Below, piece by piece: positions 1 through 10,700 of a DNA stretch of 56,033 bases (position 1 is its first letter; the number at the start of each line of letters is the position of its first letter). The stretch spans positions 1-56,033 of the forward strand of contig JACQWK010000120.1 of the NCBI GenBank assembly GCA_016209525.1. The letters are read 5' to 3'. The translations under genes and the position numbers were made by a program. Below the pieces are notes generated by a model, which was not told where the DNA came from, made no database searches, and was given only the letters and a program-made list of their open reading frames with translations. This stretch comes from Verrucomicrobiota bacterium (GTDB taxonomy: Bacteria > Verrucomicrobiota > Verrucomicrobiia > Limisphaerales > SIBE01).

Positions 1-380
1 TCCGCCTACCGACGACAAAGGAACCGCACCGCCTCCGTCCGGCCCCGGAACCCCTCCTCCGCCAACGGGCGGTGGAACCTCGCCTCCACCAACCGGCGGC
101 GGAACTCCTCCGCCTACCGACGACAGAGGAACGGCACCGCCACCGTCAGGCACCGGAACGCCTCCGCCTCCGACCGGCGGTGGAACCCCGCCTCCACCAA
201 CCGGCGGCGGAACTCCTCCGCCTACCGACGACAAAGGAACTGCCCCGCCGCCGTCCGGCACCGGAACGCCTCCACCTCCGACTGGCGGTGGAACCCTGCC
301 TCCACCAACCGGCGGCGGAACTCCTCCGCCTACCGACGACAAAGGAACTACCCCGCCACCGCCGACGGGAACTCCGCCGC
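1..380 (+). repeat. 108-bp in-frame tandem repeat (36 codons)
   Basis: The motif CCGCCTACCGACGACA starts at 2, 110, 218 and 326, exactly 108 bp apart. Each unit encodes a Pro/Thr/Gly-rich 36-residue repeat containing PPPTDDKGT and PPPTGGGT. The last copy is incomplete and the array continues off the left edge. Confidence 0.92.
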
Positions 381-3300
381 CTACGGGGGGCCAACCGTCG
401 GCTCGGAATACGCCTCCGACGATTTCTTCCATCGGAAGCCAAACAACAGAGGTGAACCTGCCTGCAGGGCCGTTCAGCTTCACAGTCAATGACACCGAAA
501 CGCCGGCTGCGGGTCTAGTGGTCACAGGAAGGTCCTCGAACGCCAAGCTTGTATCCGACGGCGGTCTCGTCGTCGAAGGCAGCGGAACGAGCCGATCTAT
601 CTTCATTTTTCCCGCCGCGAACGAACACGGCTCCGTAACCATCACCGTGACAGTAAAAGATGCGGATGGCGCCACGGCCACGAGCAGCTTCACGTTGACA
701 GTATTGCCACCTCCCGGACAACCCCCACCTAGCGGACAGCCACCAGGCACAGTTCCTCCAGGAGAAAAGCCACCCGGCGAACAACCTCCGACCGGCCAAC
801 CCCCTGGCCAGCAACCGCCCGGTGAAACTCCGCCCGGCCAACAACCTCCCGGAACTCAGCCTCCTGGACAGGTCCCGCCAGGAACAACTCCCCCTGGAAC
901 GCAACCTCCGGCCACGACTCCTCCAGGAACCACTCCACCGCCCGGTGAAGTCCCCTCAACGATTCCGACATTCGATCAGTGGGTGAAGAGTCCAGAGGCC
1001 AAAGACCTGAACGCAGACGGCAAGATCGATGAGCAGGACTATCAATTGTTCCTCAGGCAGTCTCAGCCGCCAGATGGTGGAGAACAGCCTCCCACAGGTC
1101 AGCCTCCGACGACTGGCCAACCACCCGGTCAACAGCCGCCCGGTGAGACTCCCCCAGGCCAACAACCTCCCGGCACTCAGCCACCAGGGCAAGTGCCTCC
1201 TGGGACAACTCCCCCCGGCGGAACGCAACCTCCGACTACGACTCCTCCAGGCACAACTCCACCCGGAACACAACCCCCGGCCACGACTCCTCCAGGAACT
1301 ACGCCGCCGTCTGGTGAAGTTCCCCCGACAGTTCCAACATTCGACCAATGGGTGAAGAGTTCGGAAGCCAAGGACCTGAACGCCGATGGCAAGATCGACG
1401 AGAAGGATTTTCAACTTCTCTTCGGTCAATTGTTGCCGCCTCCAACAAGCACACAACCTCCTCCAACGGGCACACAGCCGCCAGGAACGACTCCACCGGG
1501 AACAACCCCGCCTGGAACAACTCCTCCCGCAACGCAGCCTCCCGGGACTATTCCTACCGACGTTCAACCGCCTTCAGGCCAAGTCACCCCCACCATTCCC
1601 AGTTTTGACCAATGGTTGAGGAGCAATCAGGTGAAGGACTTCAACGGCGACGGCAAGATCGACGATTCTGATTTCCAACTCTTCCTCTCCCAATTCCTGC
1701 CTCCAACGACCGGCACACAGCCGCCCGGCACTGGCACACAACCACCTACGCCAGCTCCGCCGGGAACCGTGCCGCCAGGAGGCGAACAACCGCCTGCCGG
1801 ACAACCTCCGACCGGGCAACCTCCAGGCCAACAACCGCCGGGCCAGCAGCCACCGGCGACCCCAAATCAGCCTCCAAAAGTCTCGTTCATCGGCCCACAG
1901 GTTATCGAGGCTGGAAAAGCCTCGCCGGCCATCTCATTCACGATCGAAGATTCGGACACCCCAGGCGCGAGCTTGACTGTTTCCGCAACCTCGTCGAACA
2001 ACCGCCTCGTCCCCAACTCGGGTATCTCGATCAGCGGCAGCGGCTCGAGACGTTCGATCGTCGTCACGCCAGCCAGCGGGGAAAGTGGCACGACCGACAT
2101 TAAGATTACTGTATCCGACGGGGGCCGTGAAACTGCGACGACGACGTTCACGCTCTCGGTCGTTCCTCCGCTTGCTTCAGTCCAGCCGCCCGCAGGTGGA
2201 TCACCACCCACTCAACCGCCGACCGGCGAAATCCCACCAGGCCAGCTACCGCCTGGGACCACTCCTCCGACCCAACCGCCGACCGGGACAACTCCGCCAG
2301 GAACCATCCCACCTGGCCAAGAGCCACCGGGAACTCAACCTCCAGCCGGGACTCCTTCCGGGACAACTCCCCCAACTCAACCACCGACAGGAACCGTGCC
2401 TCCGGGACAAACCCCGCCGACCGGGACACCCTCCGGTCAATTACCGCCCGCAGCCGCGGCGAACACACCGCCGACGATTTCTCCAATTGCATCGCAGTCC
2501 TTGGCGCAAGGCAGATCTTCAGTCTCCATTTCGTTTACAGTGGCCGACCTGGAGACTGCCGCCGCTGAATTGAAAGTGAACGGTGAATCGTCCAACCCTT
2601 CGCTTGTCCCAAACTCGAATATCTCGTTGAGCGGCGCCGGGTTTAATCGAATCGCTACGATCACCGTCGTTCCCGGTCAATCCGGCGCGACTTTCATCAC
2701 CATCACCGTCACAGACTCGAACGGAGGCAAGGCCAGCACGGGCTTCACGTTGGCAGCAGGCGTGTCACTCGGGACAACCACTCCGGGCCAACCACCCACG
2801 ACTGGCCAACCGACTGGCACTGTGCCGCCAGGCCAGCAACCGCCCACGGGTGTTCCAAGCGGCCAGCAACCTCCCGGTGAATCGCCCACAGGCACTCAGC
2901 CGCCAGTGACAGCACCTCCGGGTCAACAGCCGCCCGCCGGTGTTCCCACCGGACAACCTCCCGTTGGTGGCACACCCACGGGACAACAGCCGCCAGTTGA
3001 ATCACCCCCGCCGATTGTCCCTCAAGTTGGGCCGACGGGCGCAACGCCTGCGGCCGCGCTGCCAACCGCAACGCTCCCACCCGACCAGATTCCAAACGCG
3101 CCAACCATTTTGGCCGACCCTCAAAACGTCGAAACCATCGCCGGTGCGAGCGCAAGTTTCTCGGTGACGGTCGTCGGCAAACTCCCCTTGTCCTACCAGT
3201 GGCGGTTTAATGGGAACGCGATCCCCGGCGCAACCAGTTCTGTCCTCGCGATCTCGAACGTCCAGGAGAGCAATGTCGGGTCGTACAGCGTCGAAATCAC

Positions 3301-6300
3301 CAACACGGATGGAAAGGCCACGAGCAAAGAAGCGACGTTGAAACTCGTGACGCTCTTGAGAATCGTTGTGCAGCCGGTGAGCCAAGTCGTCCTGCCGGGG
3401 GACAACGTCAGCTTCAGTGTGGAAGCGACCGGAGCCGCCACAATTCGATATCAATGGCAGTTCAACAGCGCCGACATTCCTGGCGCCACCAGCGCGAAAC
3501 TCGACCTGCGAAATGTCAGCGCGAAGGACTCCGGCGTTTATTCGGTGATTGTCCGCAGTGACACCGCCTCGGCGGCCAGCCTTGGAGCATTTCTCGGCAT
3601 CAACGAACTGGTGCAGATCGTGCGGCAACCGCAAAGCCAGCCGTTGGCCGAAGGCGGGCGCGCCACCTTCAGCGTCGAAGCGATTGGCACGCCGCCGCTC
3701 CGATACCAATGGCAATTCAATGGGGTCGATATACCCGGACAGACCAGCTCGGTGTTGGAATTGGCGAATGTGACGGCAGCCAACGCAGGCCAATACAGTG
3801 TCGTTGTCGGGAATCGAACCGGTTCCGCGCAGAGTGAAAAGGCCAGCCTTATCGTCAGCGCGCTTCCGACCATTCTCCGCCAACCCCAGGGCCGGGCCGC
3901 GCTCGCGGGCGAACCCACCAGCTTCAGCGTGACCGCGAGCGGCACGCCTCCGCTGGGCTATCAATGGCGATTGAACGGGGCCGACATCCCCGGAGCAACG
4001 GATTCCACCTACATTGTTCCGGCAGTGACCGCGGCGTCGGAAGGGGATTACACGGTCTTGGTCCGCAACATCGCCGGTTCTGTAACGAGCGAAGCCGCCA
4101 AATTGACCGTGAGCGCGCGCCCGCGAATCACTCAGCAACCGCAGCGCCAGACCGCGAGCGGCGGCGGCACGGCAAGTTTTGGCGTAGTTGCGGAAGGAAC
4201 GCCGCCCATCACTTACCAGTGGCAGTTCAACGGCGCGAACATTGCCGGCGCCAATTCCGCGACGTTGACGCTCCAAAACATTCGTGCCACAGACGCGGGC
4301 GCTTACCAAGTCGTCGTGAGCAATCCTTCGGGACATGTGCTCAGCGACGCGGCCAGCTTGCTGGTGAATGTGCCGATCACCATCGTCGCGGGCCCGCAGA
4401 GTCAAACGGCCGCCGCGGGCGGCACGCTGGTGTTCACGGTGAGCGCCGTCGGCACGCCGCCTCTGAGCTATCAGTGGCGGTTTAATGGTTCCAATCTTCC
4501 GGGAGCCACAGGTCCCAGCTTCAGCGTCGGCAGCGTCCAGCCATCCAACGCCGGCCAATACAGTGTCGTGGTCCAGAACGTGGCCGGCTCCGCCACGAGC
4601 GGCGACGCCACGCTCACGGTCAACGTTCCTCCGTCGATTCAGACTCATCCCGCGTCCCGGAACGCGACGCCCGGTGATAACGTGACGTTTTCGGTGACGG
4701 CCACCGGCGGCGCGCCGTTGAGTTACCAGTGGCAGAAGAACGGCCAAACAATTGGCGGCGCGACCAACCCGACATTGACCCTGTCGAACGTGCAGGCGGC
4801 GGACGCCGGAAGTTACGACGTCGTCGTGACGAATCCCGGCGGCGCTATCACCAGCCAGTCGGCGAGCCTGACGTTGGTCCTCCCGCAGGTTCAAGGCGGC
4901 AAGACGGCCGAACAAGCTCCGCCGCCCGTCGAAACGCGCGAGGGCACGTTTGACGGAGGGAGCAACGCGGCGGTGGGCGGAGCTGTGGCTCGAAAGAATG
5001 CGCCTCCGTCCTCGAGCGAGGAACGCTGGTTCTCCTGGAAAGCGCCGGCGACCGGCATCGTGTCGTTCAACACCGCCGGGAGCACCTTCGACACCGTGCT
5101 CGCCATCTACACGGGCACTCCGCCGAATAATTTGAGCCTCGTCGGAATCGATGATGACCGTGGCGGCTTCTTCAACAGCGAAGTCAAGTTCAACGCGGTC
5201 CAAGGCACCACGTATCTGGTCAAAGTTGTGGGCTACGGCGGCGCCGCGGGCCGGATCGTGGTGAATTTCAAATTGCAGGAAACCACGCAGCGCTTGCCGG
5301 TCCTCATCGTCGAACCGCAAAGCCAGACCGTCGCACTGGGCGCCGCGGTCACTTTGGCCGTGGTTGCTCAAGGGACCGACCTCAGTTACCAGTGGTTGGC
5401 GAACGGAGTCGCGCTGCCGGGCGCAACGGACACCTCCTACCGCATCACCAACGTTCAAGAAAAAGATGCGCTGCGTTACACGGTTCGCGTCCGGAGCGGC
5501 ACTGGAGCGCAGGCGGTCGAAATTGAAAGCCTGCCCGCGACAATTCAGATCGGAGCGCAAGAAACGTCCGCGAGGGACAAATTCAAGAACCTGCCCATCT
5601 TGGGCGGCAGCACGACGCCGGTCGCCACCCAATCGCCGTGGTTGAACAAACAAGCCGGAGGGTCAGTGGCTCGCGGTTATTCGGGCTCCCAAGTCTTCAA
5701 CACTTTCGGCGCAACAAAGGAGCAAGGCGAACCCAATCACGCCGACGAGATTGGCGGCGCGTCGCAATGGTTCAGCTACACCTCCCCGGATACCGGCACT
5801 TTGCGTGTGAGCACGGAAGGCAGCGATTTCGACACGGTCCTCGCCATCTATACCGGCCCCGGGACCGATTTTGCGAGTCTGAAAGCCGAAGCCTTCGACA
5901 ATAATGGCGGCGCCGACGGCAAGACCAGCGTCGTGACGGTCAAGGCCGCCAAGAACACCAATTATTATGTCGCTGTCGATGGTGTGAAAGGCGCGACCGG
6001 ATCGGTGAAGATCGGTTATGCATTGGGCGCGGCGCCGGTCATCTCCAAGCAGCCCTCGAGTCAATCGGTGAAAATCGGCGACGGGGTGGGACTCTTTGTC
6101 GAGGTGACTGATCCGTTGAGCGCTGTCACCGCCAGCACCACCCCGGCAACCTATCAGTGGTTCAAGGACGGTGTGGCCATCGCGGGCGAGACCAGCCGGT
6201 CGCTCGCGCTGCCGAACGTGCAGATCGCGAGCGGCGGAGAATACACAGTCGTCGTTTCAAACTTCGCGGGAACAGTCGCGAGCCAAGCCGCGAAGTTGAC

Positions 6301-7534
6301 CGTCAACGTGGCGTTGACCGTCAGCACGCCGCCCCTGAGCCAAACCGCCAAGGTGGGAGATTCCGTCGAATTTCGTGCCGTCGTGAGCGGCACTGAGCCC
6401 ATCAAATACCAATGGCGCATCAACGGGACCGACATTGCCGGGGCGACCGGTTCGACCTACCGAATCCCCAGCGCCCAAGGAGCCAATGCGGGCCGTTACA
6501 CGATTTTTGCCCAAAACGACATCAGCAGCATCGAAAGTGCCGCCGCGATTCTCACCATCACTCAAGCGCCTGTGATCAGCGGCCAACCTGCCGACCAAAG
6601 CGTGCTGCTCGGCGCCAAGGCGGCCTTCGCGGTCACAGCCACCGGCACGGCTCCGCTCAGCTACCAATGGCGGCAAAATGGAGTGAACATCGCCGGCGCG
6701 GCCAGCGCCTCGTTCGAGATCGCCAGCGTCGCTCCGGCGAGCGCTGGAGAATACACTGTCGTGGTGAGCAACCCCGTGGATTCCACCGTGAGTTCGCCCG
6801 CGAGACTCGCCTTGCTCGTGCCGCTCGGCGTTGTCGAGCAACCCCAAAGCCAGACCGTGACCGTCGGCAGCAGCGCTGTGTTCACCGTCCGCGCGGCAGG
6901 GTCGGGTCCGTTCGCCTATCAATGGCGCAAAGGCACTACGCCCATCCCGAATGCCACCAATCCTCACCTCACCTTGTCGAACGTGCAAGCCAGCGACGCC
7001 GGGTCGTACTCGGTAGTCGTTACCAGCGGCGCGGAATCGGTCTCGAGCGCTGCGGCGACCTTGACCGTGAGCGCGGCCCCGCTCATCACGGAGCAGCCGA
7101 AAAGCCAAGTGGGATTTGTGGGATCGTCGGTCGCCTTCAGTGTCACGGCGACAGGGTCGGAGCCGCTGTCCTATCAATGGTTCCGCAACGGCGAACCGAT
7201 CGCCGGCGCGACCGACCGGACATTGACCATTGCTGAGGTGAAGGTAGATCTGGCGGGGAGTTATGCCGTCCTGGTGAGCAACAGCGCCGGATCCACCGTG
7301 AGCGACATCGCCTTGCTGACGACGCGACAAGTCGTGTCGGATCCGCTGAAAGGATTGAATGGATTTCAATTCCGCGTCAGCGTGCCCGAGGGCAAGCGCG
7401 CGCGGCTGCAAGTTTCTTCAGACTTGGCCACCTGGGTGGACCTGACGTCCACGCCCATCACCGGCACGGTGGACATCCAGGACACCCAAATCCCAGGTTC
7501 CGGCCTCAAGTTCTACCGCGTCTTGGTCGAATGA
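2..7534 (+). CDS. Giant secreted multidomain adhesin-like protein (5'-truncated by window edge)
   Basis: The reading frame is open from the first bases of the window, so the gene begins upstream; the GTG at 452 is internal. Visible from N to C: 36-residue tandem Pro/Gly/Thr repeats (2-380); a cadherin-like beta domain (about 403-705); long PPG-type linkers; three dockerin-like calcium loops of type DLNADGKIDEQD at 1004, 1373 and 1637, each preceded by FDQW; two more cadherin-like domains (1867-2163, 2461-2757); seven Ig-like domains with YQW-NG-IPGAT and YSVVV motifs (3098-4880); a beta-sandwich domain with FDTVLAIYTG (about 4950-5280); an eighth Ig; a second FDTVLAIYTG domain (5640-6030); five more Igs (6030-7320); and a C-terminal module ending FYRVLVE. 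Known Verrucomicrobiota proteins of this style are surface or secreted. An adhesive or matrix role is inference. No catalytic domain is visible. Confidence 0.85.
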   Translation, partial: PPTDDKGTAPPPSGPGTPPPPTGGGTSPPPTGGGTPPPTDDRGTAPPPSGTGTPPPPTGGGTPPPPTGGGTPPPTDDKGTAPPPSGTGTPPPPTGGGTLPPPTGGGTPPPTDDKGTTPPPPTGTPPPTGGQPSARNTPPTISSIGSQTTEVNLPAGPFSFTVNDTETPAAGLVVTGRSSNAKLVSDGGLVVEGSGTSRSIFIFPAANEHGSVTITVTVKDADGATATSSFTLTVLPPPGQPPPSGQPPGTVPPGEKPPGEQPPTGQPPGQQPPGETPPGQQPPGTQPPGQVPPGTTPPGTQPPATTPPGTTPPPGEVPSTIPTFDQWVKSPEAKDLNADGKIDEQDYQLFLRQSQPPDGGEQPPTGQPPTTGQPPGQQPPGETPPGQQPPGTQPPGQVPPGTTPPGGTQPPTTTPPGTTPPGTQPPATTPPGTTPPSGEVPPTVPTFDQWVKSSEAKDLNADGKIDEKDFQLLFGQLLPPPTSTQPPPTGTQPPGTTPPGTTPPGTTPPATQPPGTIPTDVQPPSGQVTPTIPSFDQWLRSNQVKDFNGDGKIDDSDFQLFLSQFLPPTTGTQPPGTGTQPPTPAPPGTVPPGGEQPPAGQPPTGQPPGQQPPGQQPPATPNQPPKVSFIGPQVIEAGKASPAISFTIEDSDTPGASLTVSATSSNNRLVPNSGISISGSGSRRSIVVTPASGESGTTDIKITVSDGGRETATTTFTLSVVPPLASVQPPAGGSPPTQPPTGEIPPGQLPPGTTPPTQPPTGTTPPGTIPPGQEPPGTQPPAGTPSGTTPPTQPPTGTVPPGQTPPTGTPSGQLPPAAAANTPPTISPIASQSLAQGRSSVSISFTVADLETAAAELKVNGESSNPSLVPNSNISLSGAGFNRIATITVVPGQSGATFITITVTDSNGGKASTGFTLAAGVSLGTTTPGQPPTTGQPTGTVPPGQQPPTGVPSGQQPPGESPTGTQPPVTAPPGQQPPAGVPTGQPPVGGTPTGQQPPVESPPPIVPQVGPTGATPAAALPTATLPPDQIPNAPTILADPQNVETIAGASASFSVTVVGKLPLSYQWRFNGNAIPGATSSVLAISNVQESNVGSYSVEITNTDGKATSKEATLKLVTLLRIVVQPVSQVVLPGDNVSFSVEATGAATIRYQWQFNSADIPGATSAKLDLRNVSAKDSGVYSVIVRSDTASAASLGAFLGINELVQIVRQPQSQPLAEGGRATFSVEAIGTPPLRYQWQFNGVDIPGQTSSVLELANVTAANAGQYSVVVGNRTGSAQSEKASLIVSALPTILRQPQGRAALAGEPTSFSVTASGTPPLGYQWRLNGADIPGATDSTYIVPAVTAASEGDYTVLVRNIAGSVTSEAAKLTVSARPRITQQPQRQTASGGGTASFGVVAEGTPPITYQWQFNGANIAGANSATLTLQNIRATDAGAYQVVVSNPSGHVLSDAASLLVNVPITIVAGPQSQTAAAGGTLVFTVSAVGTPPLSYQWRFNGSNLPGATGPSFSVGSVQPSNAGQYSVVVQNVAGSATSGDATLTVNVPPSIQTHPASRNATPGDNVTFSVTATGGAPLSYQWQKNGQTIGGATNPTLTLSNVQAADAGSYDVVVTNPGGAITSQSASLTLVLPQVQGGKTAEQAPPPVETREGTFDGGSNAAVGGAVARKNAPPSSSEERWFSWKAPATGIVSFNTAGSTFDTVLAIYTGTPPNNLSLVGIDDDRGGFFNSEVKFNAVQGTTYLVKVVGYGGAAGRIVVNFKLQETTQRLPVLIVEPQSQTVALGAAVTLAVVAQGTDLSYQWLANGVALPGATDTSYRITNVQEKDALRYTVRVRSGTGAQAVEIESLPATIQIGAQETSARDKFKNLPILGGSTTPVATQSPWLNKQAGGSVARGYSGSQVFNTFGATKEQGEPNHADEIGGASQWFSYTSPDTGTLRVSTEGSDFDTVLAIYTGPGTDFASLKAEAFDNNGGADGKTSVVTVKAAKNTNYYVAVDGVKGATGSVKIGYALGAAPVISKQPSSQSVKIGDGVGLFVEVTDPLSAVTASTTPATYQWFKDGVAIAGETSRSLALPNVQIASGGEYTVVVSNFAGTVASQAAKLTVNVALTVSTPPLSQTAKVGDSVEFRAVVSGTEPIKYQWRINGTDIAGATGSTYRIPSAQGANAGRYTIFAQNDISSIESAAAILTITQAPVISGQPADQSVLLGAKAAFAVTATGTAPLSYQWRQNGVNIAGAASASFEIASVAPASAGEYTVVVSNPVDSTVSSPARLALLVPLGVVEQPQSQTVTVGSSAVFTVRAAGSGPFAYQWRKGTTPIPNATNPHLTLSNVQASDAGSYSVVVTSGAESVSSAAATLTVSAAPLITEQPKSQVGFVGSSVAFSVTATGSEPLSYQWFRNGEPIAGATDRTLTIAEVKVDLAGSYAVLVSNSAGSTVSDIALLTTRQVVSDPLKGLNGFQFRVSVPEGKRARLQVSSDLATWVDLTSTPITGTVDIQDTQIPGSGLKFYRVLVE

Positions 7535-7538
7535 AGCG

Positions 7539-7625
7539 CCAGCGAGGCGCGCCTCAGACCGACGAGACGTGCTTCTTATTTGGTAGGCTTTCTGCCTTTT
7601 AGCCTTCTCGTCCCGCGCCTCGCTT
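7539..7625. repeat. Inverted repeat after the giant gene (possible terminator)
   Basis: The left arm AGCGAGGCGCG plus GACGAGA pairs with TCTCGTC plus CGCGCCTCGCT on the right. It sits directly after the stop codon at 7534, between convergent genes, so it could end transcription from both sides. There is no U-tract. Confidence 0.45.
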
Positions 7626-7711
7626 AAGATTCCTTGACGGGGATGAGTGAGGGATTTGCAGACAACGCCAAGACTTGACCTAAATGCAACGAACTTCAGC
7701 AGTCAAGGAAT

Positions 7712-10700
7712 CTAGTCCACGGCGACGGCGATCAGGAACGGGGCTGAGCTGGACATGGCCGACACGTAATCCAGACTCGCAATCTGGGCGTCCGGACGCG
7801 GATTCTTCCACGTGGTTTTGTACAATTGGAGGCTCACACCGGAACCGGATGACGCGGCATTGGCGCCTTTCCAAGCGACTTCCGACGCGGTGACGGTAGG
7901 CGTGCCTGGCTGAGTCCACCAGTCACGAACATGCGTCCCATAGACAATCGGAACCTCTTCGGCTTGGCCATCCTGATAGTGAACGATAAACGCGCCGACC
8001 TTGGTGCCGTCGCGCGCCTGCCAGCCGGTAGCCTGCAAGAAATGAATCTGGCCGCACGACTGGCCGATCTTGATGTCTTTCACTTCTTTAGGGAACCGCA
8101 CGGACAACTGCTGCTCCGCGTCTTTGCCAGAGAGCTGCACGATGCCCCGCACATCGAATTTCGTGCCGGCGAACTCGTGGATGCCTTGTGGCAAGGACTT
8201 CAAATCGTTGTTGGGGGTGCCTCCCGAATGCCAGGAATCGTTTGGCGACGCGTTGTAGTAAGGGGAGAGATCGATCAGTTTCGCGGAAGCGTCGGGATCC
8301 CGCGGGGCGATTGGCTGCTGTGGCTTCGCTTCAGTTTGTTTTCTCGCGCGAGTGACTTGGACTCGAGCTCCCGGCCGCGGCAAGAATTCCCAGTCGGGAT
8401 TGCGCGCCAAGATCTGATTGAACCGTTTCGAATCCCGATCCCGCTCGGTGACGATCAGTTGTTTCAGACCGGCCATCTTTTCGGGGCTTCCGAGATATTG
8501 TTCTTGGATGGCGTTGCCGACGGTTCTGATCAGCTTCGATATGGCATCGGTGTTTTGCAGGATCGCCCCCTCAAACTTCCCATCCGAAACGCGCGTGTAA
8601 ACAACCACCCCTCCGGACTGATCGGCCGATTCATTGAATTCGGCAAAGAGTTTCAGAACCGCGGGCGCGATCTTCGGCCGTGGAAAAGCCAGATTGCCAG
8701 GCAAGAGGCAGTAGAGTTCCCCTGTGTCCGTGTCGCGGTTGATGGAGAGAGCCGCCGGCGAGAACTTCACATTCTCTATTTTCCGAGCCAGCACGGCTGG
8801 ATCCGAGATTCCTTCAGCCGCTTGGCGCACTTTGGCGAGGTATCCATTGACATCTCGATGCACCAGTTCTTCCAAGCCTTGGACCCACTGGAACGCCGGG
8901 GGCAAATCCGCCAATGGGCGGTGCAGACAAAAGAAATCCGCCCCCTCCGGGACTCGGTCGAGAAGCTTGCTCAGGCCGGGGGATATCCGTGGATTCGCCT
9001 GCAACTGGAGGCCGCTGAGCCATTGCGCATCTCGCGAAGCTTGGTGGAAGAGAGTATAGTCACCGAGCTTTCGCGTGAAGTAAACCCGCCGGTTGACCAG
9101 TTCGTGCTGGTTGAACCCAAAAAATCCGCCGCGAGTGACCCACGCCGTCTCCCATGTGAGCTCTTTCACTCCATTGTTCAGGTCTTGGTGTTTCAACCGG
9201 TAAACCGTCTCGATGAATCCCTGCATCGCCCGGTCGTGGGCGAACGCGTGGGAAAACGTTTTGTCAGCGAGTTCCCGGTTATGAATCAGCGCCTCCCGCT
9301 CTGCCGCGAGCGACCGTTCGAGCAAATTCTCCGTTTGGCTTGGGACCACGGTCACCGTGCGGGTTGCCGGGTAGGATAACAGGGACGCCAGCCCGCCAAA
9401 GTATTCGCGCAACGACTCGGCGTCGGAAATGGCCGGAGGCGGATTGACGGCCGTTCGAGCCGTGAGGGTCCACGGCACTTGGGCTTCGATAGGCTGCGGT
9501 CGGATTGTTTCGCGATGGACCTTTTCCAGCGCCTCCACTAAAGCCAGGTTCAGGTGCTTGGCCTCGAAGCCCGCGTGGATTCGCTTGAGCCAGGAGGCGA
9601 TTCGAGCCGAAGGCTCCACCTTCGGTTTGCGGCCGACCACGGAGAGATGGTGAGGGTCGGTGGGAAGCCGGCTGAGGGCGGTTCGAACCGCTTCCATAGG
9701 GATAGCCTGAGTTCCGGAGTCTTTTCGGTATTGGTCGGAATGCAGGTAAGCCGTCGCCTGAGGGAACTTCGCGTCCAGCTTCACTGCGAGAGTGACGCCG
9801 TTGAACGACTTGAGGCCTGTGAGCACGAACTCAAATAGCTCCTCGTAGGTGGCCGTCAGCACGCACTCGGCGTAGTCGGCCAGTTGCTCCAAACTCTGAA
9901 CTCCCATTTGGAGGCGCAAGCGTTGCTCGATGAGCTGCCGCTGCTGGGCTGGAATCTTGCCGAGCAATTGGGCTCGATGCTGCGACACAAACTGCAATGG
10001 CAAGTACTCGAAAAACTGAATCTGGGGGAGAATCGGTTTCACCAGCGCCGGGTCAAACGTAAACCAAACGTCCTCCCTAGAGGTTTGCTCGAAGACTCCG
10101 GCGAAGCGCGGATTATCCTTGAGCCGCGGCAGTGAATTGTCGGGATAGAGCAAGAGCAGGAGCGATTGTTCTCCGGTAAGGAAGACGCGATCCGCGGAGC
10201 AGGCCACATACAATTCGCGCAGTTGAGGATGATCCAATTCGAACCGTACGAACTGCTTGTCGGCCAGGCTGGAGGCTTCGACCTTTTTCGGACGGAGGGC
10301 GCCTCGAAGCAACCCTTCGAACGTGGCGTGATTCTTGACCGGCAGGCTGAGAATGATCGACCTGGGAGGGAGGCCAGGGTAAAGCGTGAGGCTGGCCGGC
10401 TGGTCCGTCGCAAGACCGGTTTTTTCGGCCAGTTGGTCCGCGGTCAACGGGGCCTGAACCGTGTGCATTCCGAGCACCGTCAACAACGGATGCTCCGAGG
10501 CCAAAAGGCCCTGAAGTGGCTCGGGCAGCAACTTGTCCGGAACCGTTGCCACCACGAAGCGCTCGAGGTTTTCGAGGATTCTTTGGGGTTGATTGATCTG
10601 GAGATGGACGATGGCATTCTGCGGGAGCACCTCGGCGGGGGTGCCGTTCCGCAAGCCATGGTTTTTCAAGCAAGACGCCGAACCGGGCGTGGGTTCCGCC

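Follow-up and report, generated by a model that had tools for sequence, protein, structure and literature searches.

Dockerins of the GC type are anchor domains built of two repeats. Canonical EF-hands carry glutamate at position 12 of the calcium loop and occur as paired hands. The reason for dockerin duplication, and the question of whether a single half would be enough, are debated in the cellulosome field (PMC8063739). The group 2 half-dockerins of Ruminococcus flavefaciens FD-1 keep the first repeat and stand at the C-terminal position (PMC2930009). They bind cohesins, with a Ka of 1e6-1e7 per M given for groups 2 and 4 (PMC5301203, PMC5934362, PMC8063739). Multi-dockerin proteins, which combine several dockerin-type units in one protein, form another related group, and a review lists their function as unknown (PMC12484212).

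The stretch of DNA analysed here (the window, 56,033 nucleotides) is contig C662 of a Verrucomicrobiota genome, starting at base 1. Its first gene is an open reading frame on the forward strand (2..7534) that is open at the left edge and encodes the C-terminal 2510 aa of a giant protein. Three small modules of this protein, also on the forward strand, are predicted to be half-dockerins, that is, single dockerin repeat units and not whole dockerins. They lie at 959..1066 (module 1, TIPTFDQWVKSPEAKDLNADGKIDEQDYQLFLRQSQ; Pfam, alignment and structure model), 1328..1435 (module 2; Pfam and alignment) and 1592..1699 (module 3; Pfam and alignment). An earlier note had described three FDQW-plus-calcium-loop modules, each single between proline-rich linkers of a non-catalytic protein. 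This is borne out, as the FDQW-plus-loop pattern occurs at nt 971, 1340 and 1604 and linkers flank each module. The module starts are spaced 123 and 88 residues, and modules 2 and 3 are 73% and 60% identical to module 1. The calcium loop D-x-N-x-D-G-x-[IV]-[DN]-x-x-D is present in all three, with the ligand positions conserved in every copy. Among the module pairs, dS is 1.6, saturated (not computable) and 1.26, and dN is 0.13, 0.27 and 0.28, values that come from only 34 codons. With 89 of 89 candidates scored, the window modules are the only three found in the genome (E 1e-28 to 3e-27); no fourth was found elsewhere, the next best match having an E of 0.21. The model of module 1, built from four sequences, has a mean pLDDT of 90.4 and consists of a helix at 5-9 and a helix at 25-35. 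Foldseek returned only four matches for it, all at E 8 or worse, of which three are dockerin chains (E 8.2) and one is a domain-swapped EF-hand (E 9.4). VIA-align 2 gave Z 2.5-2.6, with only four chains compared, in two rows.

Relatives of the module occur in other genomes. A degenerate scan of an 84,980-genome collection gave at least one relative that aligns with almost the full module, from a Latescibacterota assembly (L050). Within the order to which the window belongs, some match at E 0.01 is found in 17 of 320 genomes (23 candidates per genome scored), and six match at 1e-4 with a 38-row profile (24 candidates per genome scored). Full-length modules among the scored candidates of these 320 genomes are confined to the window's genome, the other matches being partial, from position 9 or later. 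Likewise, three of 387 genomes drawn from the larger group of the window's phylum match at 0.001, and only the window's genome does so at full length (19 candidates per genome scored). In the phylum of the Latescibacterota assembly, represented by a 64-genome set outside which the window's genome lies, 13 genomes match at 1e-4 (120 candidates per genome scored), with up to 13 module matches in one genome. Seven of the 64 carry full-length modules (G705, G730, G757, G758, G759, G760, G768); G746, G747, G748 and G752 match positions 5-28, and G726 and G743 the loop side only. As a side observation, the first profile's strongest match elsewhere in the order is L033 in G068 (8.6e-5), judged by eye to be a dockerin-like end of two repeats whose first helix contains W (FASQWL).

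The 38 rows of the family come from the window and 11 loci and were collected with a pattern that fixes W, seven residues, D, the loop and D-[FYW], so that W, D1 and D12 are invariant by selection. Outside this pattern lie S/G at W+3 and A at W+6, although most rows come from a profile search that holds both. All 38 of these related rows have S/G at W+3 and 35 have A at W+6 (motif W-x2-[SG]-x2-A), and none of 33 loops without W at that place has S/G and A together. The row L122:3865-3972, which overlaps with an adjacent row, is doubtful. Units cut by contig ends (L082, the first of L120's 106-aa frame, the first of L122, and those at the end of L123 and in L127) were left out, as were weak units without the pattern (L120 1779, L121 1976, L122 474, L129 291).

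The modules share with the second repeat of type I dockerin (PF00404) the loop D-x-N-x-D-G-x-I-D-x-x-D and the helix that follows it, and with 2yik_A the F-x-x-S-x-x-A-x-D that precedes the loop. Type I dockerins are recognised by two tandem F-hand repeats per module, but each window module contains one and covers one of the two repeats of the dockerin profile. Further differences from type I dockerin are a W instead of F, single scores below the cut-off, and an internal position in proline-rich strings of a non-catalytic protein. When the loops are compared with both profile families, as the earlier note had proposed, the whole window protein favours Dockerin_1 (33.5 bits, cut-off 22.9) over EF-hand_5 (19.1 bits, cut-off 25.9). 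Taken singly, modules 1, 2 and 3 reach 16.9, 19.8 and 16.9 bits with Dockerin_1 and 15.3, 16.1 and 17.5 bits with EF-hand_5, all under the cut-offs, and module 3 alone is slightly closer to EF-hand_5. A dockerin-like identity is thus supported over a generic EF-hand by whole-protein score, but each module is one repeat that falls below the cut-off by itself. Across the family, Dockerin_1 matches 26 of 38 members, EF-hand_5 20 and EF-hand_1 10 (at 0.05). The GC-type dockerin model (NCBIfam NF041540) matches six of 38 (best E 3.1e-4), and the whole window protein scores 13.2 bits against its cut-off of 29.

Searches of the PDB give a similar picture. The best match of a four-module profile is 2yik_A, whose C-terminal loops we take to be a dockerin, at 3e-5 for the chain and 0.0014 for the best stretch alone; its second loop is aligned over positions 3-31, including F/W-x-x-S-x-x-A-x-D before the loop. 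Once the FDQW part is removed from the profile, 2yik is not listed and calcium-binding proteins rank beside dockerin-like chains; the dockerin call therefore rests largely on the pre-loop stretch and on the family. With the 38-row profile, the dockerin chains 5nrm_B and 5nrk_B are the top two, and EF-hand proteins (2m7n, 1jfj) come next at 2e-5. These rankings bear on the idea that the modules are generic EF-hand calcium loops of non-dockerin descent, alike by convergence, to which the module 3 score, the shortened profile and the high places of EF-hand chains all lend something. The modules do resemble the EF-hand families (PF13202, PF00036) in having a calcium loop within a helix-loop-helix. 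However, they differ from them in carrying D, not E, at loop position 12 (3/3), in being unpaired and in scoring singly under the cut-off. Dockerin_1 also matches more family members than EF-hand_5, and dockerin chains lead with full-length profiles; convergence is regarded as highly improbable. In the window's genome, the three modules are the top three matches to PF00404, and none exceeds the cut-off in this genome search (65/65 candidates scored). Dockerin-bearing enzymes, by which a cellulosome would be recognised, are likewise absent from the matches over the PF00404 cut-off in this genome.

Compared with the described systems, the group 2 half-dockerins of R. flavefaciens are alike in having a single calcium repeat without the duplicated half (PMC2930009, PMC5301203, PMC5934362). 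However, they retain the first repeat at the C-terminus, whereas the window modules are internal and resemble the second repeat, and their cohesin binding has been measured, whereas the window modules are known from sequence. The window protein also parallels the multi-dockerin proteins in bearing several dockerin-type units, but the latter are described as dockerin modules of cellulosome producers (PMC12484212), whereas the units here are spaced halves. In the accessible portions of the open-access literature, no description was found of FxxW half-dockerins or of dockerin units in proline-rich string proteins.

The strings that carry the modules have a distinct architecture. A 108-bp tandem array occupies 1..361 (+; repeat analysis). 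It had been called perfect, and although the left-edge array is present, it holds 3.3 copies at 91% match, which differ pairwise at 8-11 positions per 108. The encoded units are PPPTGGGT, PPPSGTGT and PPTDDKGTA, with a period of 9 aa and a 36-aa super-unit. Periodicity analysis further delimits, all on the forward strand, four PPGxx pentapeptide linkers (A, 698..970; B, 1076..1336; C, 1433..1585; D, 1715..1885) and two proline-rich linkers (E, 2177..2476; F, 2798..3043). These six contain 32-41% proline and have a self-identity of 0.31-0.60 at lag 5 versus 0-0.08 at lag 3, the commonest units being PPGTT (9), PPGQQ (8) and PPGTQ (5). Within the first 1060 residues of the window protein, G-X-Y runs reach at most two triplets. 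Collagen-like linkers, as the earlier note had termed them, are ruled out by this periodicity of 5 or 9 instead of 3. The PPGxx strings are probably disordered. Additionally, third-position GC is low in the string part (window 2-3109), at 0.46 in the PPGxx strings and 0.53 in the array, whereas the Ig part has 0.76 and a pair of neighbouring genes 0.70-0.76; for proline codons in the same comparison, the values are 0.41-0.52 in the string part versus 0.86. Either a different origin or a codon scatter that keeps the repeats apart may account for this.

The 108-bp array also occurs at the right end of contig C576, with 5.7 further copies, and at no other place found (genome search, 40/50 candidates scored). 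There it closes a 396-aa open frame and matches the window array in reading frame and strand. Because frame and strand agree, the two frames are taken as probably one gene, broken inside its array and with 396 or more N-terminal residues on C576. The 5.7 and 3.3 copies would then be those assembled, and the true length may differ, as the gene is broken there. The C576 frame has, by eye, a signal-peptide-like start, and the giant protein is probably exported. The earlier description of a giant exported protein thus stands for size (2510 aa in an open frame) and gains support for export from this start. The C576 frame also has a domain that resembles, by eye, the Big_9-type domains of the window, with no Pfam match at 0.1.

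With the C576 and C662 frames joined in this way, the protein would begin with a signal peptide, a beta domain, the PPPTGGGT array, a second beta domain and a PPGxx string. String and module then alternate through all three modules to a further string, followed by a beta domain, a string, a beta domain, a string, 13 Ig-type stretches with two PPC-type ones, and a tail. The window part includes three cadherin/Big_9-type beta domains that had gone unmentioned for positions 1-2760, namely domain 1 (407..712, +; Pfam Big_9 and Cadherin_5 matches), domain 2 (1865..2170, +; Pfam, with the best Big_9 stretch at aa 644-718) and domain 3 (2462..2749, +; Pfam), all with bounds by eye. The Ig-type repeats, PPC-type stretches and C-terminal tail extend over 3110..7531 (+; Pfam), the PPC match being 22.4 bits and under its cut-off. 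The tail scanned alone (window 7259-7531) gives zero Pfam families over cut-off. It is of the type 'LQVSSDL..W......FYRV', and similar tails, by eye, end the giant proteins of C22 and C351; it is a possible undescribed sorting tail.

The plan of strings and modules recurs in the second phylum. Most modules outside G768 stand singly in Pro/Gly-rich strings, and in eight of ten frames compared the module flanks contain 38-75% P+G versus 19-40% overall. Nearest to the plan of the window protein come the frames L121 (431 aa), L124 (254 aa) and L126/L127, from three genomes, which have TPPPAGG- or TPPTG-type strings with one or two modules. Three of these four frames carry an FlgD-type tail (Pfam was run for L121), L126 has a signal-like start, and all four end at contig ends, so that parts may be missing. 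Apart from the tail, their sequenced parts show no folded element other than the module. Since nothing else is there besides strings, start and tail, the module is the only candidate active part of these proteins. That strings with single modules occur in a second phylum points to a reusable connector at the surface and not to a machinery for cellulose breakdown. As in the window, the contigs of L050/L082, L122/L123 and L126/L127 break inside P/G strings or module arrays, and copy numbers are therefore lower bounds.

Tandem arrays in G768 raise two other possibilities. In this genome the modules repeat every 34-39 residues, bar one degenerate overlapping row, with 5-10 residues between marked units, and two of its frames are without P/G-rich flanks (20-24% versus 18% overall). 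Seven units, together with one overlapping doubtful match, lie at the end of C191 and six at the start of C609; both stretches read on the minus strand and their open ends face each other, which probably makes them one array of 13 or more units, broken in assembly. A dockerin's own repeat is close to 34-39 residues. Pfam aligns a single dockerin across two adjacent G768 units (aa 172-222 against profile positions 2-51), a result that speaks for modules that pair like EF-hands, two half-dockerins of the same or of two chains joining with calcium so that the protein folds back or zips. Single EF-hands usually act in pairs, the domain-swapped Foldseek match is of this kind, and an odd number of three on long strings leaves one free. 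Such pairing is nevertheless unlikely, as the window modules start far apart and L124 and L126 have one module each in the sequenced part. Moreover, the three-module model (pLDDT 47.9) is too low in confidence for contacts, and a module-module pairing read from it was dropped. The same G768 array, if the contig ends join, would be more rod-like than suited to docking, which favours calcium-stabilised spacers, compact folded units without a partner that would make disordered strings stiffer or shield them in calcium-rich water. The constraint on the loop ligands agrees with spacers too, but the conserved W-x2-[SG]-x2-A seems beyond what a spacer needs, even in rows that are related and mostly profile-found, and we consider a purely mechanical role distinctly unlikely.

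The reading that fits best is docking, for the unit is a dockerin repeat and the string proteins have no other visible part that could act. Furthermore, half-dockerins with measured cohesin binding exist in R. flavefaciens group 2, as cited above. Half-dockerins loaded with calcium on flexible strings may accordingly act together as weak, multivalent docking points for the cohesin-type domains of other exported or surface proteins, a proposal that we hold tentatively and rate as a serious possibility short of probable. Each module would consist of a short connecting helix that holds FDQW, a single calcium loop (DxNxDGKIDxxD) and a long helix, and the three would be spaced individually along long PPGxx strings within the giant protein's N-terminal half. 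Calcium binding would fold each module, and the folded module would offer a weak docking site for cohesin-type domains of other exported proteins. Acting multivalently, three or more modules could then cross-link the surface layer or retain partner proteins.

Candidate partners are present in the same genome. A cohesin-like domain on C351 scores 25.9 bits in the genome search and 26.1 cut out (cut-off 24.1), and 18.8 bits, below cut-off, in the whole-protein scan. Another on C22 scores 23 bits in the genome search and 23.5 cut out, both below cut-off, and a cohesin match is absent from its whole-protein scan. Both domains lie within other giant proteins, not in a scaffoldin. The C351 domain has eight matches in the PDB, comprising five chains named scaffoldin or cohesin, two that are the A chains of entries with a dockerin as chain B, and an antibody chain; the first seven are weak (E 0.03-0.14). 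The absence of any cohesin gene together with a better EF-hand match had been named as what would speak against dockerins. Instead, one cohesin-like domain lies just over the cut-off when scored by itself and the whole protein favours dockerin, and the idea survives, if only narrowly.

Cohesins are widespread in the phylum of the Latescibacterota assembly, with matches in 50 of 64 genomes at 0.001 and in 47 over the cut-off. They occur in seven of seven genomes with full-length modules versus 43 of 57 others, which is no association (p=0.33), and co-occurrence was dropped as evidence of partnership. At least two of the seven have an above-cut-off cohesin in or next to a module frame. In G705 a cohesin (C35:1349-1645, 36 bits) lies beside the module frame, and in G760 one (C274:12238-12540, 24.7 bits) lies in a frame that adjoins a module frame and itself bears modules. 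A match of 19.9 bits in the module frame of G758 (L120) is below cut-off and was not counted. The first domain of L050, taken by eye for a cohesin, was dropped, as Pfam and the PDB gave no support. As a separate observation, the C22 protein (L016:1040-2311; 2274 aa, cadherin-type) has its cohesin-like domain (23.5 bits) followed by an 83-aa segment with two DWxQxG-type loops and zero Pfam matches, and then, by eye, by a second cohesin-like domain without a Pfam match. The 83-aa segment is found in five of the eight genomes of the family, its own included.

The genomic setting adds a further aspect. The 1075-aa neighbour gene has long matches (about 800 aa or more) in four of the seven other genomes of the family. 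On those four contigs, no giant Ig/PPG frame follows it (3.8 to 14.9 kb examined to the contig end; frames of 220 aa or more), and an orthologue of the giant gene at a conserved place was set aside. The place of the giant gene is not conserved, and the protein is therefore either a local acquisition or a fast-changing one. Beyond docking in this genome, it is possible, if doubtful, that the W-type half-dockerin is a free-standing connector in at least two phyla, borne by exported string proteins with Pro/Gly/Thr strings, single modules and a sorting tail. This would be an inverted, enzyme-free relative of cellulosome logic, in which weak calcium-dependent units cross-link cohesin-bearing surface proteins or each other, and the window protein would be an enlarged form that arose in its genome through the gain of strings and modules. 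Units that are naturally single, and many-fold (13 or more), outside known cellulosomes would allow a direct test of whether a half-dockerin suffices. Additionally, the string-plus-module plan would point to a means of building calcium-dependent surface networks in which disordered strings are combined with 36-residue knots. On C576, upstream of the giant gene, a 965-aa protein with zero Pfam matches at 0.001 is enclosed by two related proteins (L015:310-3372 and 6633-9401) that carry a GH115 C-terminal domain, Big_5 and Big_7.
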